IMG/VR virus record: IMGVR_UViG_3300014501_000071
Location: 1-24,788 of that record
DNA: 24,788 bases
DNA from: a virus
Reading direction: 5' to 3' (one strand)
Part shown: positions 862 through 20,358 of the stretch, in pieces
Position numbering within the stretch: position 1 is the first letter of the stretch
How the letters are laid out: every line of letters starts with the position of its first letter
Program-made: the position numbers and the translations under genes
Notes under the pieces: model-generated
Databases searched by the model: none
Told to the model about the DNA's origin: nothing
Seen by the model: the letters and a program-made list of their open reading frames with translations, nothing else

Positions 862-3582
862 CTACGCCTTAGCCTCAGACCAGCGATCGACAATCTGAGC
901 GTCAACCGTCAAGGGCACTTTAACATACTTCTGAATCCCCGGGCCGGTCATCGCGTCAACCATCAGCTCACGCACGTACTCTGCCTTACCCCGGGGAGAA
1001 ACAGCTACCAGCTCATCATGCACCGTCATCGTGAGATACGCTTCGGGCACATGCTGCTGAAGCCGGTCATCGAACCTGATCATGGCCAGCTTAATCAGGT
1101 CAGCAGCCCCGCCCTGAATAAGGCTGTTGAATACCTGCCGCTCGGCTGCGGCGCGCTTCTTCTTATCCCCCGAGAGCATCGCCAGCACACGGCGCTTACG
1201 TCCGAGCAGGGTAACCACATGCGGCGGTCGGCGGCTCCTGCACTCCCCGAACACCTGACGCTTAAACGCGGGCACCTCGGGAAAGTCCCTGTCGTACTTC
1301 TTCATCAGGGCCAGTCCGTCTTTATACCCGCCGCCGATCATAGTCCCGATAAGATGCGGGCCAGCTCCGTTTACCACAGTGAAGTTCAAGGTCTTTCCCA
1401 GTGTCTGGCGCTCACCCTTAGTTACCTGATCCGGTGTCTTTCCGGTAACACCGGCTGCGGTAACAAGGTGCGGGTCGATCCCGTTATGAAATCCCTCGAA
1501 CAATGCCCCGTAGCCTATCAAGTGCGCGAGAATCACCAGCTCTATCTGCCCGAGGTCACCCACGACCAGCACCTCATCGCCATCAGGATCAGGCAGCCCG
1601 TCAAGCAGGCTGGCGATAAACGTGCTACGCAGCAGCTTGCCGTCTTCCGTATCCGGGCGGGGAATGTTCTGAAGGTTCGGAGCCGCGCAGTTGTGTACAC
1701 ATATCCCATTGGCGATGAAATTGTGCACACCATCTACCTCCATGTCCCACACCGGCTCAACGGGGCCGGGGGAGACACTAACCACATGGTAATCAGTCGG
1801 CCCAGCGTACAGATCAGGGGCCTGGAAAGGATTCCCCGCCCCCCAATGTGGATGCAGATGACGCCTGCCACGGTGCTCTGCAATGGTCAGTGCCTCAAGG
1901 TTACTGATACTGTTATTGGCACGGTTGCAATCATGGTGATGTACGTCCGTCTTAGTACTGATCTTCTTGCCAGTCACCTGTTCGTACACCCAACGATGTT
2001 CCCGGTTCTTGCCACCACCTTTGGTGCCGTGGCTTTGTGCTACTGAATGCGGAAAGAACTTAACGTAGCCGTCATCCACGCCACGCTTTACCATCGTCAT
2101 CACCCGAGGCCCATCGTCCCGATGGGGTGCGCCTGCTCGGTGCATCAGCGAGCCAGCAGGACGCCAGTCGCCATTCCTAAGCCGCACCAGATGCTCTGGT
2201 GTCGCCCGCAAAACCAGTCGGTGCCCTTCGCTGTTCTCAGCAGTGACCACAACGGTCTGCTTCATCCCCGTCTGGCCAACCCACTTAACCTGTCGAAGGA
2301 CAAGCTCACGCTGCCAGTCGAAAGCATAAACCCAATCACCTGGCTGAACATCAGTAATGCGGATACCGCCCGGATCCTTCAGTAGATCGCGGGGCATCTC
2401 AATTAGAGAATCAGCAGACAGACAGCTCGTGCGTCCCGTCACCGTGGACCCCTGCTTAAACCCCGCGTGAATCCTGCCGTCGAATACCTGCGGCTCTTTC
2501 TCCTCGCCGTCACCCAGCCAGGAGACCACGTAGGTGTTCAGCAGCTTATGCGTATCGCCGTAGTCACGGAGCGCACTAGCAAGAGGATTGCGGGGAAAGC
2601 CCTCCAGCACTTCATCATCAGTGCTGTACCACTGATGGCTCTCCTCCTCCCCCGCGTCCTTTTTCTTCTGGCCGCCGTCTGTCAGCTTCCACGGCCGAAG
2701 TCCCTGCCCGCCCTCAGCCTTCGGGAGGAACAGCAGCTCCTGCTTCTGCGGGGCTGAGTTGATGTTGAAGCGCTTCCCGGCGGCCGAGTAGACACTCCCC
2801 TCCTGATCCACCAGCCGGGCGTTCAGGACGTCTCTCAGCTCTTCCAGCCTGGGCACGTCCACCGGCTGGCCCGCGAGCCTCATCGCGCAGAACGTGGGCA
2901 TCAGATCCTGTTCGATCTGGTGGATGGCCTCCAGGTCATCAGCGGTAATCAGAGGACGGCACCGCGTGTAATGCAGCCAGGTATAGAGCACATCCATGTA
3001 GTTGTAGTGCGCTACCTTGTTAAAGCCAAAATTCTCAACGCACTTACCCACGTTCTCAAAGTCGTACTCGACTCCGTAAACACTTTTAGTCAATGGCTTC
3101 AGCGCATAATTCCGCCGGTTCTCATCCAGCAGCCACGGCAGCACCATCGTGTCATCAAACGGAGGCAACGGCATCTCAGGATAGTACTTAGTGATCGCCG
3201 GGATGTCATAGGTGATGCCATGAGCTACCTTTGTCATCGTCTCGCTGAAGAACAACGGCTCCAGCATCTCGAAGGCAATGTCCGGACGGAGCTGCGGCGG
3301 AGGGTCGGACCACACCGGCACCTTAGCCATGTACGGCTTGCCGGTGCTGTACATGCGCGGCTCTTTAGCCGTGCCGATTCTTTCCCCGACCGGGTGTCCC
3401 GCCGGAATGACAACAGCCAACTTGTCAGTCGCAATGCCTATCCAAGTGACCCCACACAGATGAGGCACCCCCCGGTTTGCCCCCATACTTTCAACATCAA
3501 ATGCAAAAGCCTCTTGTTTCAGTACATGCTCTACAACTTCTCGAAGATGCCTTTCTGTCAGTACAATATTAGAGGAGGTCAC
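862..3582 (-). CDS. Family A DNA polymerase with 3'-5' exonuclease, intein-containing
   Basis: This is the phage replicative DNA polymerase. Numbered from the GTG at 3582 (906 residues), the exonuclease domain shows Exo I DVE (D29, E31), Exo II with D126 in HGITYDIPAI, and Exo III YNYMD (D197), so proofreading looks intact. The polymerase domain shows TGRTS...APNLQNIP (split by an intein), motif A GDLGQIEL (D676, E681), motif B RQTLGKTLNF (R725, K730) and motif C VHDE (855-858 region). There is no 5'-3' exonuclease domain. I chose GTG 3582 because GGGAGGA lies six bases upstream and because its first codons match the duplicated start at 4108. An in-frame ATG at 3606 (914 residues) is the alternative. 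After intein removal the protein is about 660 residues, normal for a phage enzyme. Motif A is unusual, with Leu-Gly in place of the common Tyr-Ser. Confidence 0.95.
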   Translation of the reverse strand: MTSSNIVLTERHLREVVEHVLKQEAFAFDVESMGANRGVPHLCGVTWIGIATDKLAVVIPAGHPVGERIGTAKEPRMYSTGKPYMAKVPVWSDPPPQLRPDIAFEMLEPLFFSETMTKVAHGITYDIPAITKYYPEMPLPPFDDTMVLPWLLDENRRNYALKPLTKSVYGVEYDFENVGKCVENFGFNKVAHYNYMDVLYTWLHYTRCRPLITADDLEAIHQIEQDLMPTFCAMRLAGQPVDVPRLEELRDVLNARLVDQEGSVYSAAGKRFNINSAPQKQELLFLPKAEGGQGLRPWKLTDGGQKKKDAGEEESHQWYSTDDEVLEGFPRNPLASALRDYGDTHKLLNTYVVSWLGDGEEKEPQVFDGRIHAGFKQGSTVTGRTSCLSADSLIEMPRDLLKDPGGIRITDVQPGDWVYAFDWQRELVLRQVKWVGQTGMKQTVVVTAENSEGHRLVLRATPEHLVRLRNGDWRPAGSLMHRAGAPHRDDGPRVMTMVKRGVDDGYVKFFPHSVAQSHGTKGGGKNREHRWVYEQVTGKKISTKTDVHHHDCNRANNSISNLEALTIAEHRGRRHLHPHWGAGNPFQAPDLYAGPTDYHVVSVSPGPVEPVWDMEVDGVHNFIANGICVHNCAAPNLQNIPRPDTEDGKLLRSTFIASLLDGLPDPDGDEVLVVGDLGQIELVILAHLIGYGALFEGFHNGIDPHLVTAAGVTGKTPDQVTKGERQTLGKTLNFTVVNGAGPHLIGTMIGGGYKDGLALMKKYDRDFPEVPAFKRQVFGECRSRRPPHVVTLLGRKRRVLAMLSGDKKKRAAAERQVFNSLIQGGAADLIKLAMIRFDDRLQQHVPEAYLTMTVHDELVAVSPRGKAEYVRELMVDAMTGPGIQKYVKVPLTVDAQIVDRWSEAKA
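1690..2424 (-). other. Class 1 intein with HNH endonuclease, in DNA polymerase
   Basis: A 245-residue in-frame insertion interrupts the conserved TGRxS...PNLQNIP motif of the polymerase. It begins with Cys (CLSADSLIEM, block A), has a block B-like RATPEHLVRL, and ends with block F/G HNFIANGICVHN followed by Cys at +1 of the C-extein. These are the residues expected for standard (class 1) protein splicing. Between the splicing blocks, near residues 155-185 of the intein, lies VHHHDCNRANNSISNLEAL followed by a third His, an HNH homing endonuclease motif. Splicing would rejoin TGRTS to CAAPNLQNIP. Removal is needed because the motif lines the polymerase active site. Confidence 0.93.
3568..3582 (-). 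repeat. Second copy of polymerase start codons (imperfect direct repeat)
   Basis: The first five codons of the polymerase (GTGACCTCCTCTAAT, V/M-T-S-S-N) repeat those at 4094-4108. 13 of 15 bases match and the only difference is a Ser codon (TCC against AGC), so the peptide is identical. This copy overlaps the last codons of the endonuclease gene in another frame and has its own ribosome binding site GGGAGGA. Confidence 0.8.
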
Positions 3583-4108
3583 GGTACGTCCTCCCACTAG
3601 AAACATTGCCGATCACCTGAGGAGAACAGTTAAAGCGCTGCGCTAGCTCAGCACGCTCACCAGTGCCCCAACGTTTCCCGTTGTACTGCTGACGAATAAT
3701 TGCAACCTCCTCGGGCGTAAGAGACGCCTGCGGATTACGTGAACCCAAGCAATGAGGATCTACAAAGCCATTCCAGCTCGTAACAATAGAAACTAGCTGT
3801 GCACGCCTTCGCGACAAAAACCAAGGTGCCAGAGCAGCCATAATTGCATAGCTTTCAGCATTCCTCTGACTAACCCACACCCATTGATCCTTATGAAACC
3901 CTCCGCTAGCACGGGGAACTTTATAAGGGCCGTAAACACTGCCAACTCCAGCTACCGCATGCGCGCGACGAATAACATCTTCATCGGTCATCTTGATTTT
4001 AATGCGCAAAGTGTTGCGACTCTTTCGTTCCAGAGTGAGAGAACCTTCCCCTTCCACCAATCCGGCGAGCCAGGCAAGGTTCTCTCGTGTCCAATTAGAG
4101 CTGGTCAC
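3569..4108 (-). CDS. Free-standing LAGLIDADG homing endonuclease with C-terminal HTH
   Basis: 179 residues from GTG at 4108. The single LAGLIDADG-type motif LAWLAGLVEGEGS (residues 11-23, likely catalytic Glu21) indicates a homodimeric enzyme of the I-CreI type that makes a site-specific double-strand break. The core continues to about residue 115. Residues 130-175 (LTPEEVAIIRQQY...AELAQRFNCSPQVIGNVSSG) look like a helix-turn-helix of the kind often appended to phage homing nucleases. The gene abuts the stop of a 43-codon gene and its stop overlaps the polymerase start, so it sits exactly between an upstream gene and the polymerase. Its first residues MTSSN are the same as those of the polymerase. 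Codon choice looks more AT-rich than the neighbours, consistent with recent transfer. Confidence 0.88.
   Translation of the reverse strand: MTSSNWTRENLAWLAGLVEGEGSLTLERKSRNTLRIKIKMTDEDVIRRAHAVAGVGSVYGPYKVPRASGGFHKDQWVWVSQRNAESYAIMAALAPWFLSRRRAQLVSIVTSWNGFVDPHCLGSRNPQASLTPEEVAIIRQQYNGKRWGTGERAELAQRFNCSPQVIGNVSSGRTYRDLL
4094..4108 (-). repeat. First copy of polymerase start codons, used by the endonuclease gene
   Basis: GTGACCAGCTCTAAT lies directly after the TGA of the upstream 43-codon gene, where the polymerase would be expected to start without the insertion. It now encodes the first five residues of the endonuclease. It matches 3568-3582 except for a synonymous Ser codon. Confidence 0.8.
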
Positions 4109-4240
4109 TCACTCCTCATTCATTTTCTCGACGGCCATTTCCAGGGCTTCCTGCTCTGTCTCAGCCTCCACCACGATCTCCCTGGCCTCGCTCCCGCCGC
4201 CTGCTACGGCGCGGTAATAAGGAAAGCGGTACTCGGTCAC
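4109..4240 (-). CDS. Small hypothetical protein, 43 residues
   Basis: An open frame of 43 codons from GTG at 4240, overlapping the stop of the previous gene by GTGA and ending directly before the start of the homing endonuclease gene. The peptide runs from MTEYRFPYYRAVAGG to EALEMAVEKMNEE. It has a short beta-like start and a strongly acidic helical end. The exact coupling on both sides and the amphipathic pattern support a real gene, though it is short. It resembles in build the 68-residue protein at 14302-14508 (a beta-strand start, then AETxxEA and an acidic helix), which suggests but does not prove a common small-protein family. Function unknown. Confidence 0.7.
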   Translation of the reverse strand: MTEYRFPYYRAVAGGGSEAREIVVEAETEQEALEMAVEKMNEE

Positions 4241-5055
4241 GTCTCCAGTTCGCGCTGCCTTGCCAGCAGTTCCTTGTGCGAATCGACACGGATGACATCG
4301 GTGTCGTACATCTCGCTGGCCAGGTCGTCCAGCTCAGACTCGGTGAGGGGAGCCATCTCCCAGTCGTCTTCCAGGTCACGCGCCCGCACCAGGTCAACGG
4401 TGTAGGTGAAGCCCTTCTTCTTGCCCGAGGTCTTCTTGACAACGATATACACATCGCTGTCACCCAGGCCACGGTCCTTCTCGGCCAGCTCTTCAGCACG
4501 CTCACCGAGCCGGGCAGCCGGGTCGGGACTAAGCCGCCAGTACTTGGTCTCCGGGATCAGCTCATCGTCCTTGCCGAAGACATTCAGGTCCACGACGTTA
4601 AGATATGAGAAAGGCTTAGGCGTGTCGCTGACCGCGCACAGCGGGCATTCCTTGGTCTCCTCGCATGACCAGGACTTCCGGCCGTCCAGCTCCCAGATAA
4701 AGTGCTCGAAGGCAGTCTCGAAAGGCTCGTCCTCCAGCGGCTTGAGAAGATAGCGGGTGTTCTCCTCCTCCGCCTTGAACTCGCCCTCATCACTGTACTT
4801 GCCGCTGCCAGCCTTAGCCTGTGCTTCCTTCGCGGCACCCCAGCCTTTCCGTGCTTCCCTGCGGGGGGGCGGAGCGGCCTCAGCGGCACGCTCAGACCTC
4901 GGGCGGCGGCGGGTGGTCTCTTCCTCAGCGGGAGCCTCTGACCGCCCGCCACGGCCACGCCGTGAGCTACGGGATGACCGCTCCTCCGTCACGTCTGCCT
5001 CATCATCTGCCGAAGCACGGGCGGACCTGCGCCGTGCGATTGGGTCTCGTGCCAT
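4237..5055 (-). CDS. Probable phage single-stranded DNA-binding protein
   Basis: 272 residues from ATG at 5055, which overlaps the upstream stop (TGATG) and has GAGGAG at a good distance. A GTG at 5082 in frame would add nine residues and is less likely. Residues 1-80 are a highly charged Arg/Glu/Ala/Pro tail, probably disordered. A globular part follows with YLLKPLEDEPFETAFEH and then a Cys cluster (C131, C137, C140 in SCEETKECPLCAVSD) and FSYLNVVDLNVF. This pattern, a CPLC metal-binding element followed by beta strands, is what I associate with gp32-like ssDNA-binding proteins of actinophages. The C-terminal region is acidic, as is common in SSBs for partner recruitment. Its place before the polymerase fits. 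The assignment rests on pattern recall and is moderately sure. Confidence 0.55.
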   Translation of the reverse strand: MARDPIARRRSARASADDEADVTEERSSRSSRRGRGGRSEAPAEEETTRRRPRSERAAEAAPPPRREARKGWGAAKEAQAKAGSGKYSDEGEFKAEEENTRYLLKPLEDEPFETAFEHFIWELDGRKSWSCEETKECPLCAVSDTPKPFSYLNVVDLNVFGKDDELIPETKYWRLSPDPAARLGERAEELAEKDRGLGDSDVYIVVKKTSGKKKGFTYTVDLVRARDLEDDWEMAPLTESELDDLASEMYDTDVIRVDSHKELLARQRELET

Positions 5056-5297
5056 CAGTGATTCTCCTCGCTGTTCAGCCACTCATGAATGTAACTATCG
5101 CCTTCTGGCGAATCCGGGCCGCATGCTGTCGTGAATGCTATCTTCTCCAGCACGGGATGCAAAGTGCTGCGGACCTGCTCATTCAGTGCCGCCTCAGTTA
5201 CGCCCAGTGACGTATCGCCATCAGCCCCGGCGGTTACGCGGACCATCTCATAGTTGCCCATCTTTACCGTGTGAGTCACGGAAAGGGAAATAATCAT
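5055..5297 (-). CDS. Small hypothetical protein, 80 residues
   Basis: 80 residues from ATG at 5297, coupled to the gene before it by an ATGA overlap and to the gene after it by TGATG. It starts with beta-like hydrophobic segments (MIISLSVTHTVKMGNYEMVRV), then has a Gly/Asp-rich turn and a helix (EAALNEQVRSTLHPVLEKI). The end is acidic. It has no signal peptide, membrane segment or catalytic motif that I can name. It lies between a MerR-like DNA-binding protein and the probable SSB, so a replication-linked role is possible. Function unknown. Confidence 0.75.
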   Translation of the reverse strand: MIISLSVTHTVKMGNYEMVRVTAGADGDTSLGVTEAALNEQVRSTLHPVLEKIAFTTACGPDSPEGDSYIHEWLNSEENH

Positions 5298-6565: not shown

Positions 6566-9172
6566 TCATAGCCCCGGGACCGTGTCTTCCAGGAACGCAG
6601 TCAGTGACTGCACATCGTTTTTCACATGCCCTCGCTTATCCGCGCCATGACGGTCCCGCACTGCTTTCCAGACCTTGCCCTTCCACTTTACCATGCTGAG
6701 TTTTCTCTCCTCGATCGTCCCACGGGTAATCATGTTGTGCACGTAGATCTTGGAGAACTCGCTGCTCGCCCTATCATGCCGGTGATCCACCTGGCTGTTG
6801 CGCCCGGCACTCCACGGCAGGTCGTACTTAACGAGGTGGTCGGCCATATACATGTCGCAGCCGTAGGCACCTGCATGAGAGGAGATAAACACCCGCAGCT
6901 CAGGGTCATCAGTGAACCTGGCAATAGCCTGGTCCTTTGCCCCGGCCGACATCCCCCCGTGGTACTGCACGCAGGGAATGGCCAGCTCAGCCTCGATAAT
7001 ATCCAGCATATTGCGCCACTGCGTGTAGATAAGCACCTTACTTTTACTATCAAAGTCCAAGATCAATTGTACTTTTCTCGTGAGTTCCGACAATTTGGCG
7101 GACTCCAAGGCGTCGTCGTAAAGACCGGCCTGCCACTTGCCATAGCAGTACCGCGAGCCTGCCTGACCCAGGGTGTCCTGGTAAAGGATGCCGGACTCAA
7201 CTGGCAGGTCGGGATGGTCAAGGAACAGCTCCATTGCCTGGTGAATAGACATGACCTTACCGACAGCGGTATCCATTGCCGTTCCCCCGGCGTAATGCGC
7301 GGCCAGGTCAAAACTGACGTTCCCTCGTATCCGCTGAAGGGCCTCGTACAACTCACTGGCCATGCCAAAGTAGGGACCAGCAGTCAGCACGTCCATGTCC
7401 ACATGCCAGATGTCCTCGGTAAAATCGGGAAGGTACGGCTTGACATCGGGATCAGCCCGCGCGGCCCGGAACCATGCCGGTGCCATAAGGTCATGCAGCA
7501 CCGGAGTGTTCTTGTACTTAGTGACCTGGCCATCATCCCGCCGGTCAACAAAGGCGCTGTCGAATACATGCGGCTGCCCGAGCACGCTCTTGTCAACCCA
7601 CTCCATGATGGAGTACAGCTCCTCGGGCCTGCCGTTCTCCATAGGCGTCCCGGTCAGGGCCAGCCTGTATTCAGGCCGCAGTGTCTTCTTGATCCTGACA
7701 GAACGCCCGGATCCAGCCCCGGCTATCTGCGTAGCCTCATCCAGGACCACCATGCCCGGGCGAATCCTCCGCACCTCGCGGACGTCATCAACGACATTCG
7801 GGTATCCGAGGATGACGTAGTCGGTATCAGATGTGATACTCGCGTACTGAGCCTCACGCTTAGCACGGGTGCCGTCGATCACCACGCACTGCGGCGCGGC
7901 GGGCAGCTCGGTAAATACCTTCTTGCGCTTCTTCATCTCGGTAGGCAGGTCGGTGAATTTGACAAGCGCGCGAGCCCACTGGAACTTCAGCGCGGGGGGC
8001 ACCACCACCATGCAAAGATCTATGTCCCCGCAGCCCAGCAGCTCCTCCGCGCAGGCAATGGCAACGGGGGTGTTGTGCGTGACAATGAAACCTCGGGTGA
8101 CATACAAATGATCCGGCGCGTCAACCAATATGCACACCGCGTCCTCTTCGTGAGAATACTCAATACTCTTAATGCAGCGCGCAGGAGGGTACTTTGACGG
8201 AACTATGTATTTACCCACCTTTCGGGACAGTCGGAACGGCGCCAGCTCGGGCGGCAGCTTAACGTTCACCCGCCAGGATGGTCTTCCCTGCTTACGTTCA
8301 CCTTTGTAGGTGTACCAGGTCCGTCGTGAGCCACTAACACGCGCCACACCGCCAAGAGACTGCGCGAGTTCGACAACACCATCACGCAATGTGGGCAATG
8401 TGGTGCTGAATTCTGTGCCACCAGTGTGCTGGGGTGTACCGTCTGCATCCATCAGACCTTGCAACAATGCCAGGCGGTTTTCAACCGACGCACGCAAGTA
8501 TTGCTCAGGGATGTTCTTGTTACCGATCACACCAAGACTGCGGAGCTGTCCTACAAGTCCGTGAATTGTGTACGCATAAGGACGCGTGTCAGTTCCGTGG
8601 TACGACACGTCGTACCCCGCAGTCGTAATTTGGTTAACAATTTCTGCATCGGCACTAGTGAAGCCCCCGCTGAGTGAAGTACCGTCCCCAAGCCACACAC
8701 CAAGAACATATGGATCAACCGGAAGAGCAGACGCGGGGGAGTACTGCACAGGCTTAGCCATAGGTATCTTCCAGCGCAGATTGCCTGAACCAGCGTGTGT
8801 CAAACTATCTTCCAATTCAGCAGTGGTCTTCACAACCCACTTACCTGCTTGCCGCCCACTAACACGTTGCACAGACCACAGATGTTCAGGTCCGGCGTAA
8901 GTCCAGCTACCGTCATTCATCGTGACCTTGAGAACACGACGATCCTTCTGAGGAAACACGCCAACAACACGCACAGCAGTCCCATCACTGCCTATAACCT
9001 CGTCACCCGGCACCAATTTACCAATGGGTGTCCAGCCGCGTGGCGTAAGCACAGGCTCAGAAACAGGTTGCAACTTGCCGGTGCCCATGTCCATCGCGGC
9101 AAGCATAAGGCCGCGCCCGAGGAACTTATCGACAGCGCGGTCCTGATACGGATGCAATCTTTTAGTTATCAC
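6566..9172 (-). CDS. SNF2/DEAD-like superfamily 2 helicase, intein-containing
   Basis: 868 residues from GTG at 9172; an in-frame TGA directly before it rules out an earlier start. Host motifs: LHPYQDRAVDKFL (Q-motif-like, 6-18), Walker A GTGK/T split by an intein (residues 30-33 and 368), Walker B VVLDEAT (476-481), motif III LALTGTP, a second RecA-like domain with VLIYTQWRNMLDIIE, and motif VI QVDHRHDRAS (794-803). These mark an ATP-driven DNA translocase of the SNF2/helicase-like type, common in actinophage replication modules. Without the intein it would be 534 residues. There is no recognisable ribosome binding site, but a promoter-like pair sits just upstream. The partner genes are the primase and the RepA-like ATPase. 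It could remodel forks or load replication proteins; the specific role is inferred. Confidence 0.93.
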   Translation of the reverse strand: MITKRLHPYQDRAVDKFLGRGLMLAAMDMGTGKLQPVSEPVLTPRGWTPIGKLVPGDEVIGSDGTAVRVVGVFPQKDRRVLKVTMNDGSWTYAGPEHLWSVQRVSGRQAGKWVVKTTAELEDSLTHAGSGNLRWKIPMAKPVQYSPASALPVDPYVLGVWLGDGTSLSGGFTSADAEIVNQITTAGYDVSYHGTDTRPYAYTIHGLVGQLRSLGVIGNKNIPEQYLRASVENRLALLQGLMDADGTPQHTGGTEFSTTLPTLRDGVVELAQSLGGVARVSGSRRTWYTYKGERKQGRPSWRVNVKLPPELAPFRLSRKVGKYIVPSKYPPARCIKSIEYSHEEDAVCILVDAPDHLYVTRGFIVTHNTPVAIACAEELLGCGDIDLCMVVVPPALKFQWARALVKFTDLPTEMKKRKKVFTELPAAPQCVVIDGTRAKREAQYASITSDTDYVILGYPNVVDDVREVRRIRPGMVVLDEATQIAGAGSGRSVRIKKTLRPEYRLALTGTPMENGRPEELYSIMEWVDKSVLGQPHVFDSAFVDRRDDGQVTKYKNTPVLHDLMAPAWFRAARADPDVKPYLPDFTEDIWHVDMDVLTAGPYFGMASELYEALQRIRGNVSFDLAAHYAGGTAMDTAVGKVMSIHQAMELFLDHPDLPVESGILYQDTLGQAGSRYCYGKWQAGLYDDALESAKLSELTRKVQLILDFDSKSKVLIYTQWRNMLDIIEAELAIPCVQYHGGMSAGAKDQAIARFTDDPELRVFISSHAGAYGCDMYMADHLVKYDLPWSAGRNSQVDHRHDRASSEFSKIYVHNMITRGTIEERKLSMVKWKGKVWKAVRDRHGADKRGHVKNDVQSLTAFLEDTVPGL
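8072..9073 (-). other. Class 3-type LAGLIDADG intein in helicase Walker A
   Basis: A 334-residue in-frame insertion splits GTGK/T of the helicase. It starts with Leu34 of the precursor (LQPVSEPVLTPRGW), not Cys or Ser, and ends VTHN followed by Thr. It carries the three residues that define class 3 inteins: Trp99 in block B (PEHLW), Cys347 in block F (AVCILVD) and Thr365 in block G (VTHN). In that class the block F Cys starts splicing in place of residue 1. Two LAGLIDADG motifs, YVLGVWLGDG (about 155-164) and LLQGLMDADG (about 236-245), mark a single-chain homing endonuclease with acidic catalytic residues in place. Confidence 0.92.
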
Positions 9173-19836: not shown

Positions 19837-20358
19837 ATGGACACTTCTTGGCGAGAAGAACTCGCATGGGCGGCTGGCTTCTTCGATGGTGAAGGTAGCA
19901 CTGGGTTTAACGATCCCATTCGTAAGTACGGACGCATGTCTATTCATCAGGTAGACAGGCGTTCGTTGTTCAGATTCCGGGCGGCTGTACTTGACCGAGG
20001 AACCATTCGCGGCCCTTATGATAAGGATACCGGACAACCTATTTCGCTCTGGGAGTGCACTACTTTTCAAACCGTGCAAGCTGTTCTTGCTATGCTTTGG
20101 CCTTTTTTGGGTGAAGCTAAAAAGGAACAAGCTAAGCCCGTGCTGTACACGATGAACTTCAGCCCGCCTCGCCAGGAGTTTGCTGATGATCGAACGTACG
20201 TGATGAATGGTAGAACATGTCGTCAGGCTTACGAGTTTTGCAAGAACGGCAAAGGGCCGCATCGTAAAACACCCGCCAACACCACCAAATGGGGGCAGTG
20301 CCGAGAGTGCATGCGGATATTCGATCGCGCTCGGCGTCCTCCGGGGAGTAAGCGCTGA
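19837..20358 (+). CDS. Free-standing LAGLIDADG homing endonuclease, opposite strand
   Basis: 173 residues from ATG at 19837, the only clear plus-strand gene. The single LAGLIDADG motif LAWAAGFFDGEGS (residues 9-21, catalytic Glu19) marks a homodimeric homing endonuclease. The core resembles the endonuclease at 3569-4108: ...IRGPY... and AVLAMLWPFLGEAKKEQ align with SVYGPY and AIMAALAPWFLSRRRAQ. Its C-terminus differs: it has Cys128, Cys135, Cys155 and Cys158 (CRQAYEFC and CREC), a zinc-ribbon-like DNA-binding module. The gene sits between the jelly-roll protein gene and the adhesin gene and is flanked by a repeat of the adhesin's first seven codons. Its base composition looks lower in GC than the neighbours. 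It would cleave a phage genome lacking the insertion. Confidence 0.87.
   Translation: MDTSWREELAWAAGFFDGEGSTGFNDPIRKYGRMSIHQVDRRSLFRFRAAVLDRGTIRGPYDKDTGQPISLWECTTFQTVQAVLAMLWPFLGEAKKEQAKPVLYTMNFSPPRQEFADDRTYVMNGRTCRQAYEFCKNGKGPHRKTPANTTKWGQCRECMRIFDRARRPPGSKR

Follow-up and report, generated by a model that had tools for sequence, protein, structure and literature searches.

We analysed a 24,788-bp viral record, IMGVR_UViG_3300014501_000071 of IMG/VR (hereafter the window, meaning the whole of that stretch), in which a free-standing open reading frame (ORF) predicted to encode a LAGLIDADG homing endonuclease lies directly ahead of a family A DNA polymerase gene of the Streptomyces phage BRock type. 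The endonuclease belongs to a known kind of selfish DNA-cutting gene, and comparison with related loci supports its reading as an extra gene, putatively inserted at the 5′ end of the polymerase. The two genes open with five nearly identical codons, and we consider an ordinary insertion by intronless homing at the junction between an SSB-like gene and the polymerase, together with a coincident likeness of the two starts, to be the probable explanation. How a free-standing endonuclease gene first enters a new site and leaves an essential neighbour intact has seldom been documented, and if the two starts were in truth one captured start the locus would preserve such an entry at the level of sequence. 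For the present, the locus offers what appears to be a compositional footprint of homing in an actinophage, covering the endonuclease gene and about 40 polymerase codons, and an endonuclease 3′ end that probably doubles as the polymerase ribosome-binding region.

An extra gene at the SSB/polymerase junction

Gene order and coordinates are those of the minus strand unless stated (Table 1). The SSB-like gene is followed by a 43-codon ORF, the endonuclease gene and the polymerase. As a preliminary description of this DNA had placed it, the endonuclease start at 4108 stands directly 3′ of the TGA (4111-4109) of the 43-codon ORF; its TAA stop (3571-3569) lies within polymerase codons four and five, so that the two genes overlap by 14 nucleotides (nt). 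The GGGAGGA reported there ahead of the polymerase start is likewise present (3595-3589), inside the endonuclease codons and 6 nt from the polymerase GTG. The idea that AGG had been specially chosen as a rare codon within this ribosome-binding site was rejected, AGG being common here.

We compared the locus with about 250 polymerase loci, some of them overlapping, from IMG/VR, GTDB genomes and phage records, collections which may be without records very close to the window. None of these loci carried an endonuclease relative between the SSB-like gene and the polymerase. Both genes were identified in 180 loci; they lay ≤ 150 nt apart in 145 of these, and the largest gaps contained either small, unrelated genes or one resembling a methyltransferase gene. 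The window polymerase, whose extein is 45-51 % identical to its relatives, grouped in a tree with those of loci L174, L038 and L179 with a support of 1.0, and throughout this sister clade the SSB gene abuts or overlaps the polymerase start (TTAATG in L174 and L179, a 3-nt gap in L038). The polymerase start of L174, MLNSSIILTEDKLREVV, is in the same register as that of the window, VTSSNIVLTERHLREVV, and we thus take 3582 to be the native polymerase N-terminus. The insertion at the polymerase start that had been proposed from the window alone is therefore borne out, both by the absence of the gene from the compared loci and by the direct contact of SSB and polymerase genes in the sister clade. 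A true polymerase start at 4108, reached by splicing or frameshifting, was rejected on the ground that 3582 shares the register of the relatives, and the ATG at 3606 is a less likely start judging by family length.

Searches of the relative loci and of PHROG detected no relatives of the 43-codon ORF. No close DNA relatives of the window were found in the phage collection, and a single-sequence polymerase query of viral contigs returned no match. Two other loci, L180 and L185, contain insertions of ~1.2 kb at the SSB/polymerase junction holding a gene for a 360-residue DNA cytosine methyltransferase-like protein. The junction looks like a recurrent insertion site.

Predicted class and relatives of the endonuclease

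The product of 3569-4108 matched phrog_5046 (5e-17) and, among profiles of PDB entries, I-HjeMI (2e-6) and I-AniI (1e-5). Its motif reads WLAGLVEGEG, and the acidic residue E21 is invariant in five of five aligned members. In the predicted structure (mean pLDDT 74.5) the elements alpha-beta-beta-alpha-beta-beta-alpha follow in order over residues 8-96, with a predicted C-terminal domain of three helices beyond the LAGLIDADG fold, and Foldseek returned I-CreI as the top matches to this model, with a probability of 1.00 and TM values of 0.48/0.56. From its sequence and modelled fold the product is predicted to be a single-motif, I-CreI-type LAGLIDADG homing endonuclease. A group I intron around the gene was considered and rejected, as positions 3000-5200 gave no Rfam match at E up to 1 and the window has no match to RF00028, while loci L001, L003 and L004 do match it. 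The gene is a complete ORF outside any intron or intein, ending within the start of the next gene.

The endonucleases of L001, L003 and L004, all from IMG/VR, share 38-40 % identity with the window protein over the alignment and the same WTRENLAW N-terminus, and those of L001 and L004 also share its C-terminal GxTYK helix-turn-helix end; unlike the window gene, all three are encoded in group I introns of capsid genes. Group I introns, two to four per gene and several with endonuclease genes, split these capsid genes (L001 4704-6737, L003 4767-7295, L004 4701-7864). L002 contains a free-standing gene of the same subfamily directly 5′ of a family A polymerase, with a stop/start overlap of TTGA, but there the polymerase is of a different family, the C-terminal domain is missing and there is no start repeat. 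In NATL2A-133 and RHph_N3_13, related genes that are likewise free-standing run 10-11 nt into the gene that follows. Mycobacteriophage LittleE gp14, a 34 % tblastn match, consists of an I-CreI-like LAGLIDADG domain and a C-terminal domain of ~50 residues common to HNH endonucleases (PMC3706429), the same two-part architecture as in the window, although gp14 lies in a capsid gene intron and the window gene stands ahead of a polymerase with no intron.

Phages are well known to carry free-standing endonuclease genes close to replication genes and in short translational overlap (PMC2988022; PMC10448857). According to reviews, such genes lie between conserved genes in the vicinity of polymerases, show short overlaps and have their flanks co-converted (PMC2988022; PMC3984707). 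MobE and SegA-G of T4 resemble the window gene as selfish endonuclease genes placed between conserved genes near replication genes, often with translational overlap; they differ in belonging to the GIY-YIG and HNH families, and the overlaps described for them are with the upstream gene (PMC2988022).

Foreign-like composition of the polymerase 5′ end

The G+C content at third codon positions (GC3) of the endonuclease gene is 0.47, against 0.67-0.75 in the neighbouring genes, and it is lower still in the first 40 polymerase codons (0.35, compared with 0.68 in the rest of the gene). A value as low as 0.35 was reached by none of 6459 40-codon segments outside the endonuclease, the next lowest falling mostly in a helicase intein (see below). 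Relative to the rest of the gene the polymerase 5′ end shows a dip (-0.37) larger than in any of the 178 insertion-free relatives (mean -0.055, standard deviation 0.086), which suggests that about 40 polymerase codons were co-converted from an AT-richer donor. An origin of this 5′ end in another clade is not visible, as L174 is the best match there and near-best overall. The preliminary description had the element bring in a second, recoded start: the GC3 dip backs a foreign polymerase start, but it does not establish the other copy as the original one.

We propose that a BRock-type actinophage acquired a free-standing I-CreI-like LAGLIDADG endonuclease gene at its SSB/polymerase junction by ordinary intronless homing, in which the endonuclease would cut endonuclease-free polymerase loci and its gene would be copied in during repair. 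Some 40 codons of donor polymerase 5′ sequence would have been carried along as a co-conversion tract. The overlapping 3′ end of the endonuclease gene would carry the polymerase ribosome-binding site, and the polymerase would therefore be translated from its native N-terminus (GTG 3582).

Two genes with nearly identical starts

The polymerase ORF begins at 3582 with GTGACCTCCTCTAAT, encoding V-T-S-S-N-I-V-L-T-E, and the endonuclease ORF at 4108 with GTGACCAGCTCTAAT, encoding V-T-S-S-N-W-T-R-E-N-L-A-W. As noted in the preliminary description, the five start codons match at 13 of 15 bases, both mismatches falling in one synonymous Ser codon (AGC vs TCC). No similarity between the two starts was found beyond the 15 bases, ruling out a longer repeat. 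Under a chance model that took position-specific codon usage from 669 phage gene starts, a random pair of starts reaches 13/15 with P = 5.4e-5 (1.0e-4 if the start codon is the same), and none of 4222 within-locus pairs of starts did so. Once the residues specified by each family are given (polymerase xSSN, endonuclease TSxN) the probability rises to 0.5 %, and plain-DNA shuffling gave 0.39 expected matches of this kind against two observed, a number attained in 8 % of shuffles. The same kilobase holds two further direct repeats of 13-15 nt with 80-85 % identity. The likeness is thus above naive chance, but it was noticed post hoc and is partly explained by family residues, and we regard it as mildly unexpected, not compelling.

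Relatives of the polymerase carry SS or SSN ahead of a conserved hydrophobic-L-T stretch (L039 RQSSNTV, L040 SISSNTV, L155 RFSSNTI, L179 MKSSVIL, L258 MSSVILTE). S-x-N precedes WTRENLAW in three of four close endonuclease relatives (L001 MATSENWTRENLAW, L003 RSKN-WTRENLAW, L004 VSQN-WTRENLAW; L002 has MPKQ), without any link to this polymerase. Judging by these N-termini, the two families each provide most of the shared residues independently. GTGACC also opens the 43-codon ORF at 4240. Because GTGACC is a recurrent start at this locus, SS/SSN is typical of the polymerase family and S-x-N before WTRENLAW of the endonuclease family, the 15-nt likeness would most likely be a coincidence of family-specific beginnings. 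The repeat is absent from other carriers of the endonuclease, all distant members (L002, NATL2A-133, RHph_N3_13, SuMoo and BaileyBlu), whose starts match at 3-9 of 15 bases; in the first four the endonuclease abuts or overlaps the start of the next gene, and in L002 the match between the endonuclease and the following polymerase is 3/15. A DNA pattern search of IMG/VR found no polymerases beginning MTSSNIVLTE.

Several observations weigh against insertion by ordinary homing with a coincidental likeness. Both copies of the repeat start precisely on the start codon, and such a likeness is unlikely for an unconstrained pair (5e-5). Family residues explain only part of it, Thr2 not being seen in close polymerase relatives and Thr occupying the shared position in only one endonuclease relative. 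A donor sequence for the AT-rich tract was not found. The Pfam LAGLIDADG_3 score of the endonuclease is 17.7 bits, under the gathering cut-off of 22.5, which is a curated threshold and not a biological feature, and the classification relies on PHROG, profile and fold.

Alternative origins of the repeat

The preliminary description had taken 4108 to be the original polymerase start, now used by the endonuclease, and this is not established: 3582 is in the native register, the endonuclease relatives carry S-x-N independently and other carriers are without the repeat. A form of this history which we consider unlikely is that the recipient polymerase start, together with a leader located at the end of the 43-codon gene, became joined by microhomology to an incoming endonuclease at the shared Asn codon, leaving the donor polymerase start on the other side, so that the two copies would be orthologous polymerase starts differing by a synonymous change. 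It would account for an identity limited to the five start codons, for a repeat that ends where endonuclease-family similarity starts (W6) and begins where that similarity fades (after GRTY), for the continuation of foreign composition on the right side only and for the native-like GC3 of the 43-codon gene. I-TevII of sunY is also a precedent for target-like sequence on the flanks of an endonuclease ORF (Loizos et al., as cited in PMC3984707). Insertion-free relatives in which the 43-codon gene is followed directly by the polymerase would be expected, but none was found in collections from which very close records may be missing, and in the sister clade it is SSB itself that meets the polymerase. 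Moreover the endonuclease family has this Asn in any case, a junction that kept both the frame and N-W is improbable in itself, the Shine-Dalgarno spacing of 3 nt before 4108 would be poor for an essential gene, and in other carriers the overlap with the next gene involves no capture. As the collections may be incomplete near the window, the case for a captured start is weakened and not refuted, and it is rather doubtful that the endonuclease took over the start codon of the recipient polymerase together with its leader and five opening codons and is now expressed from the former translation signals of an essential gene.

We think it improbable that the 43-codon ORF and the endonuclease arrived together as a two-gene cassette, the original polymerase start being the GTGA that overlaps the SSB stop at 4240 and the shared sequence the CGTGACC present at both 4240 and 3582. 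The overlapping or abutting SSB stop in L174 and L179 fits such an arrangement, as does the lack of the 43-codon ORF in every relative. However its GC3 is native-like, unlike that of the endonuclease, unrelated small genes are common at the junction in relatives so that the ORF may be an independent gain, and 7 nt of identity is little.

The weakest alternative, and a very improbable one, is an operator at the endonuclease start which resembles a homing site in the polymerase start and serves self-repression, as in the case of I-TevI, the two changed central bases blocking cleavage and not binding. The mismatches lie near the centre of the 15-mer, and LAGLIDADG enzymes cut near the centre of their sites. 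However a single-motif LAGLIDADG protein is expected to be dimeric on its DNA, with a site close to a palindrome, and the 15-mer is not palindromic. The 15-mer is also shorter than the usual LAGLIDADG site, and the copy overlaps coding sequence and not an identified promoter. Homing-site-like operators are known upstream of the I-TevI, I-TevII and I-TevIII ORFs, with 15/20 identity for I-TevI (PMC2988022).

Features of the window

Table 1 Features at the polymerase locus of the window
Feature	Position	Strand	Evidence
Family A DNA polymerase, Streptomyces phage BRock type, intein-interrupted, GTG start at 3582	862..3582	-	Pfam DNA_pol_A 3e-68; PHROG 17 3e-91
Intein in polymerase, with HNH_3 endonuclease domain	1690..2424	-	Pfam HNH_3, Hint, Intein_splicing
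First 40 polymerase codons, probable co-converted (foreign) tract	3463..3582	-	GC3
Repeat copy 1, polymerase start GTGACCTCCTCTAAT	3568..3582	-	
Free-standing LAGLIDADG endonuclease gene (predicted), 179 residues, one LAGLIDADG motif and C-terminal helix-turn-helix	3569..4108	-	
GGGAGGA, probable polymerase ribosome-binding site, within the last endonuclease codons	3589..3595	-	sequence
Repeat copy 2, endonuclease start GTGACCAGCTCTAAT	4094..4108	-	
43-codon ORF, GTGACC start overlapping SSB stop, native-like GC3 of 0.73	4109..4240	-	
SSB-like gene, upstream of the polymerase in nearly all relatives	4237..5046	-	synteny by tblastn (180 loci); annotation of the LuckySocke homologue as SSB protein

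Four endonuclease-bearing elements are present in the window: the polymerase intein, the gene at 3569, an intein in a SNF2-like helicase gene (6566-9172, minus strand) and a second phrog_5046 LAGLIDADG-like gene. The helicase intein sits at the Walker A GTGK/T junction and contains a LAGLIDADG domain. The second phrog_5046 gene (19837-20358) is on the opposite, plus strand between tail genes, and its product is 31 % identical to that of the 3569-4108 gene. In the O-helix of the window polymerase an Asn replaces the Tyr of its relatives (NFTVVNGAG vs NFAVVYGAG), which is unusual for a family A polymerase and may have an effect on fidelity or nucleotide choice.

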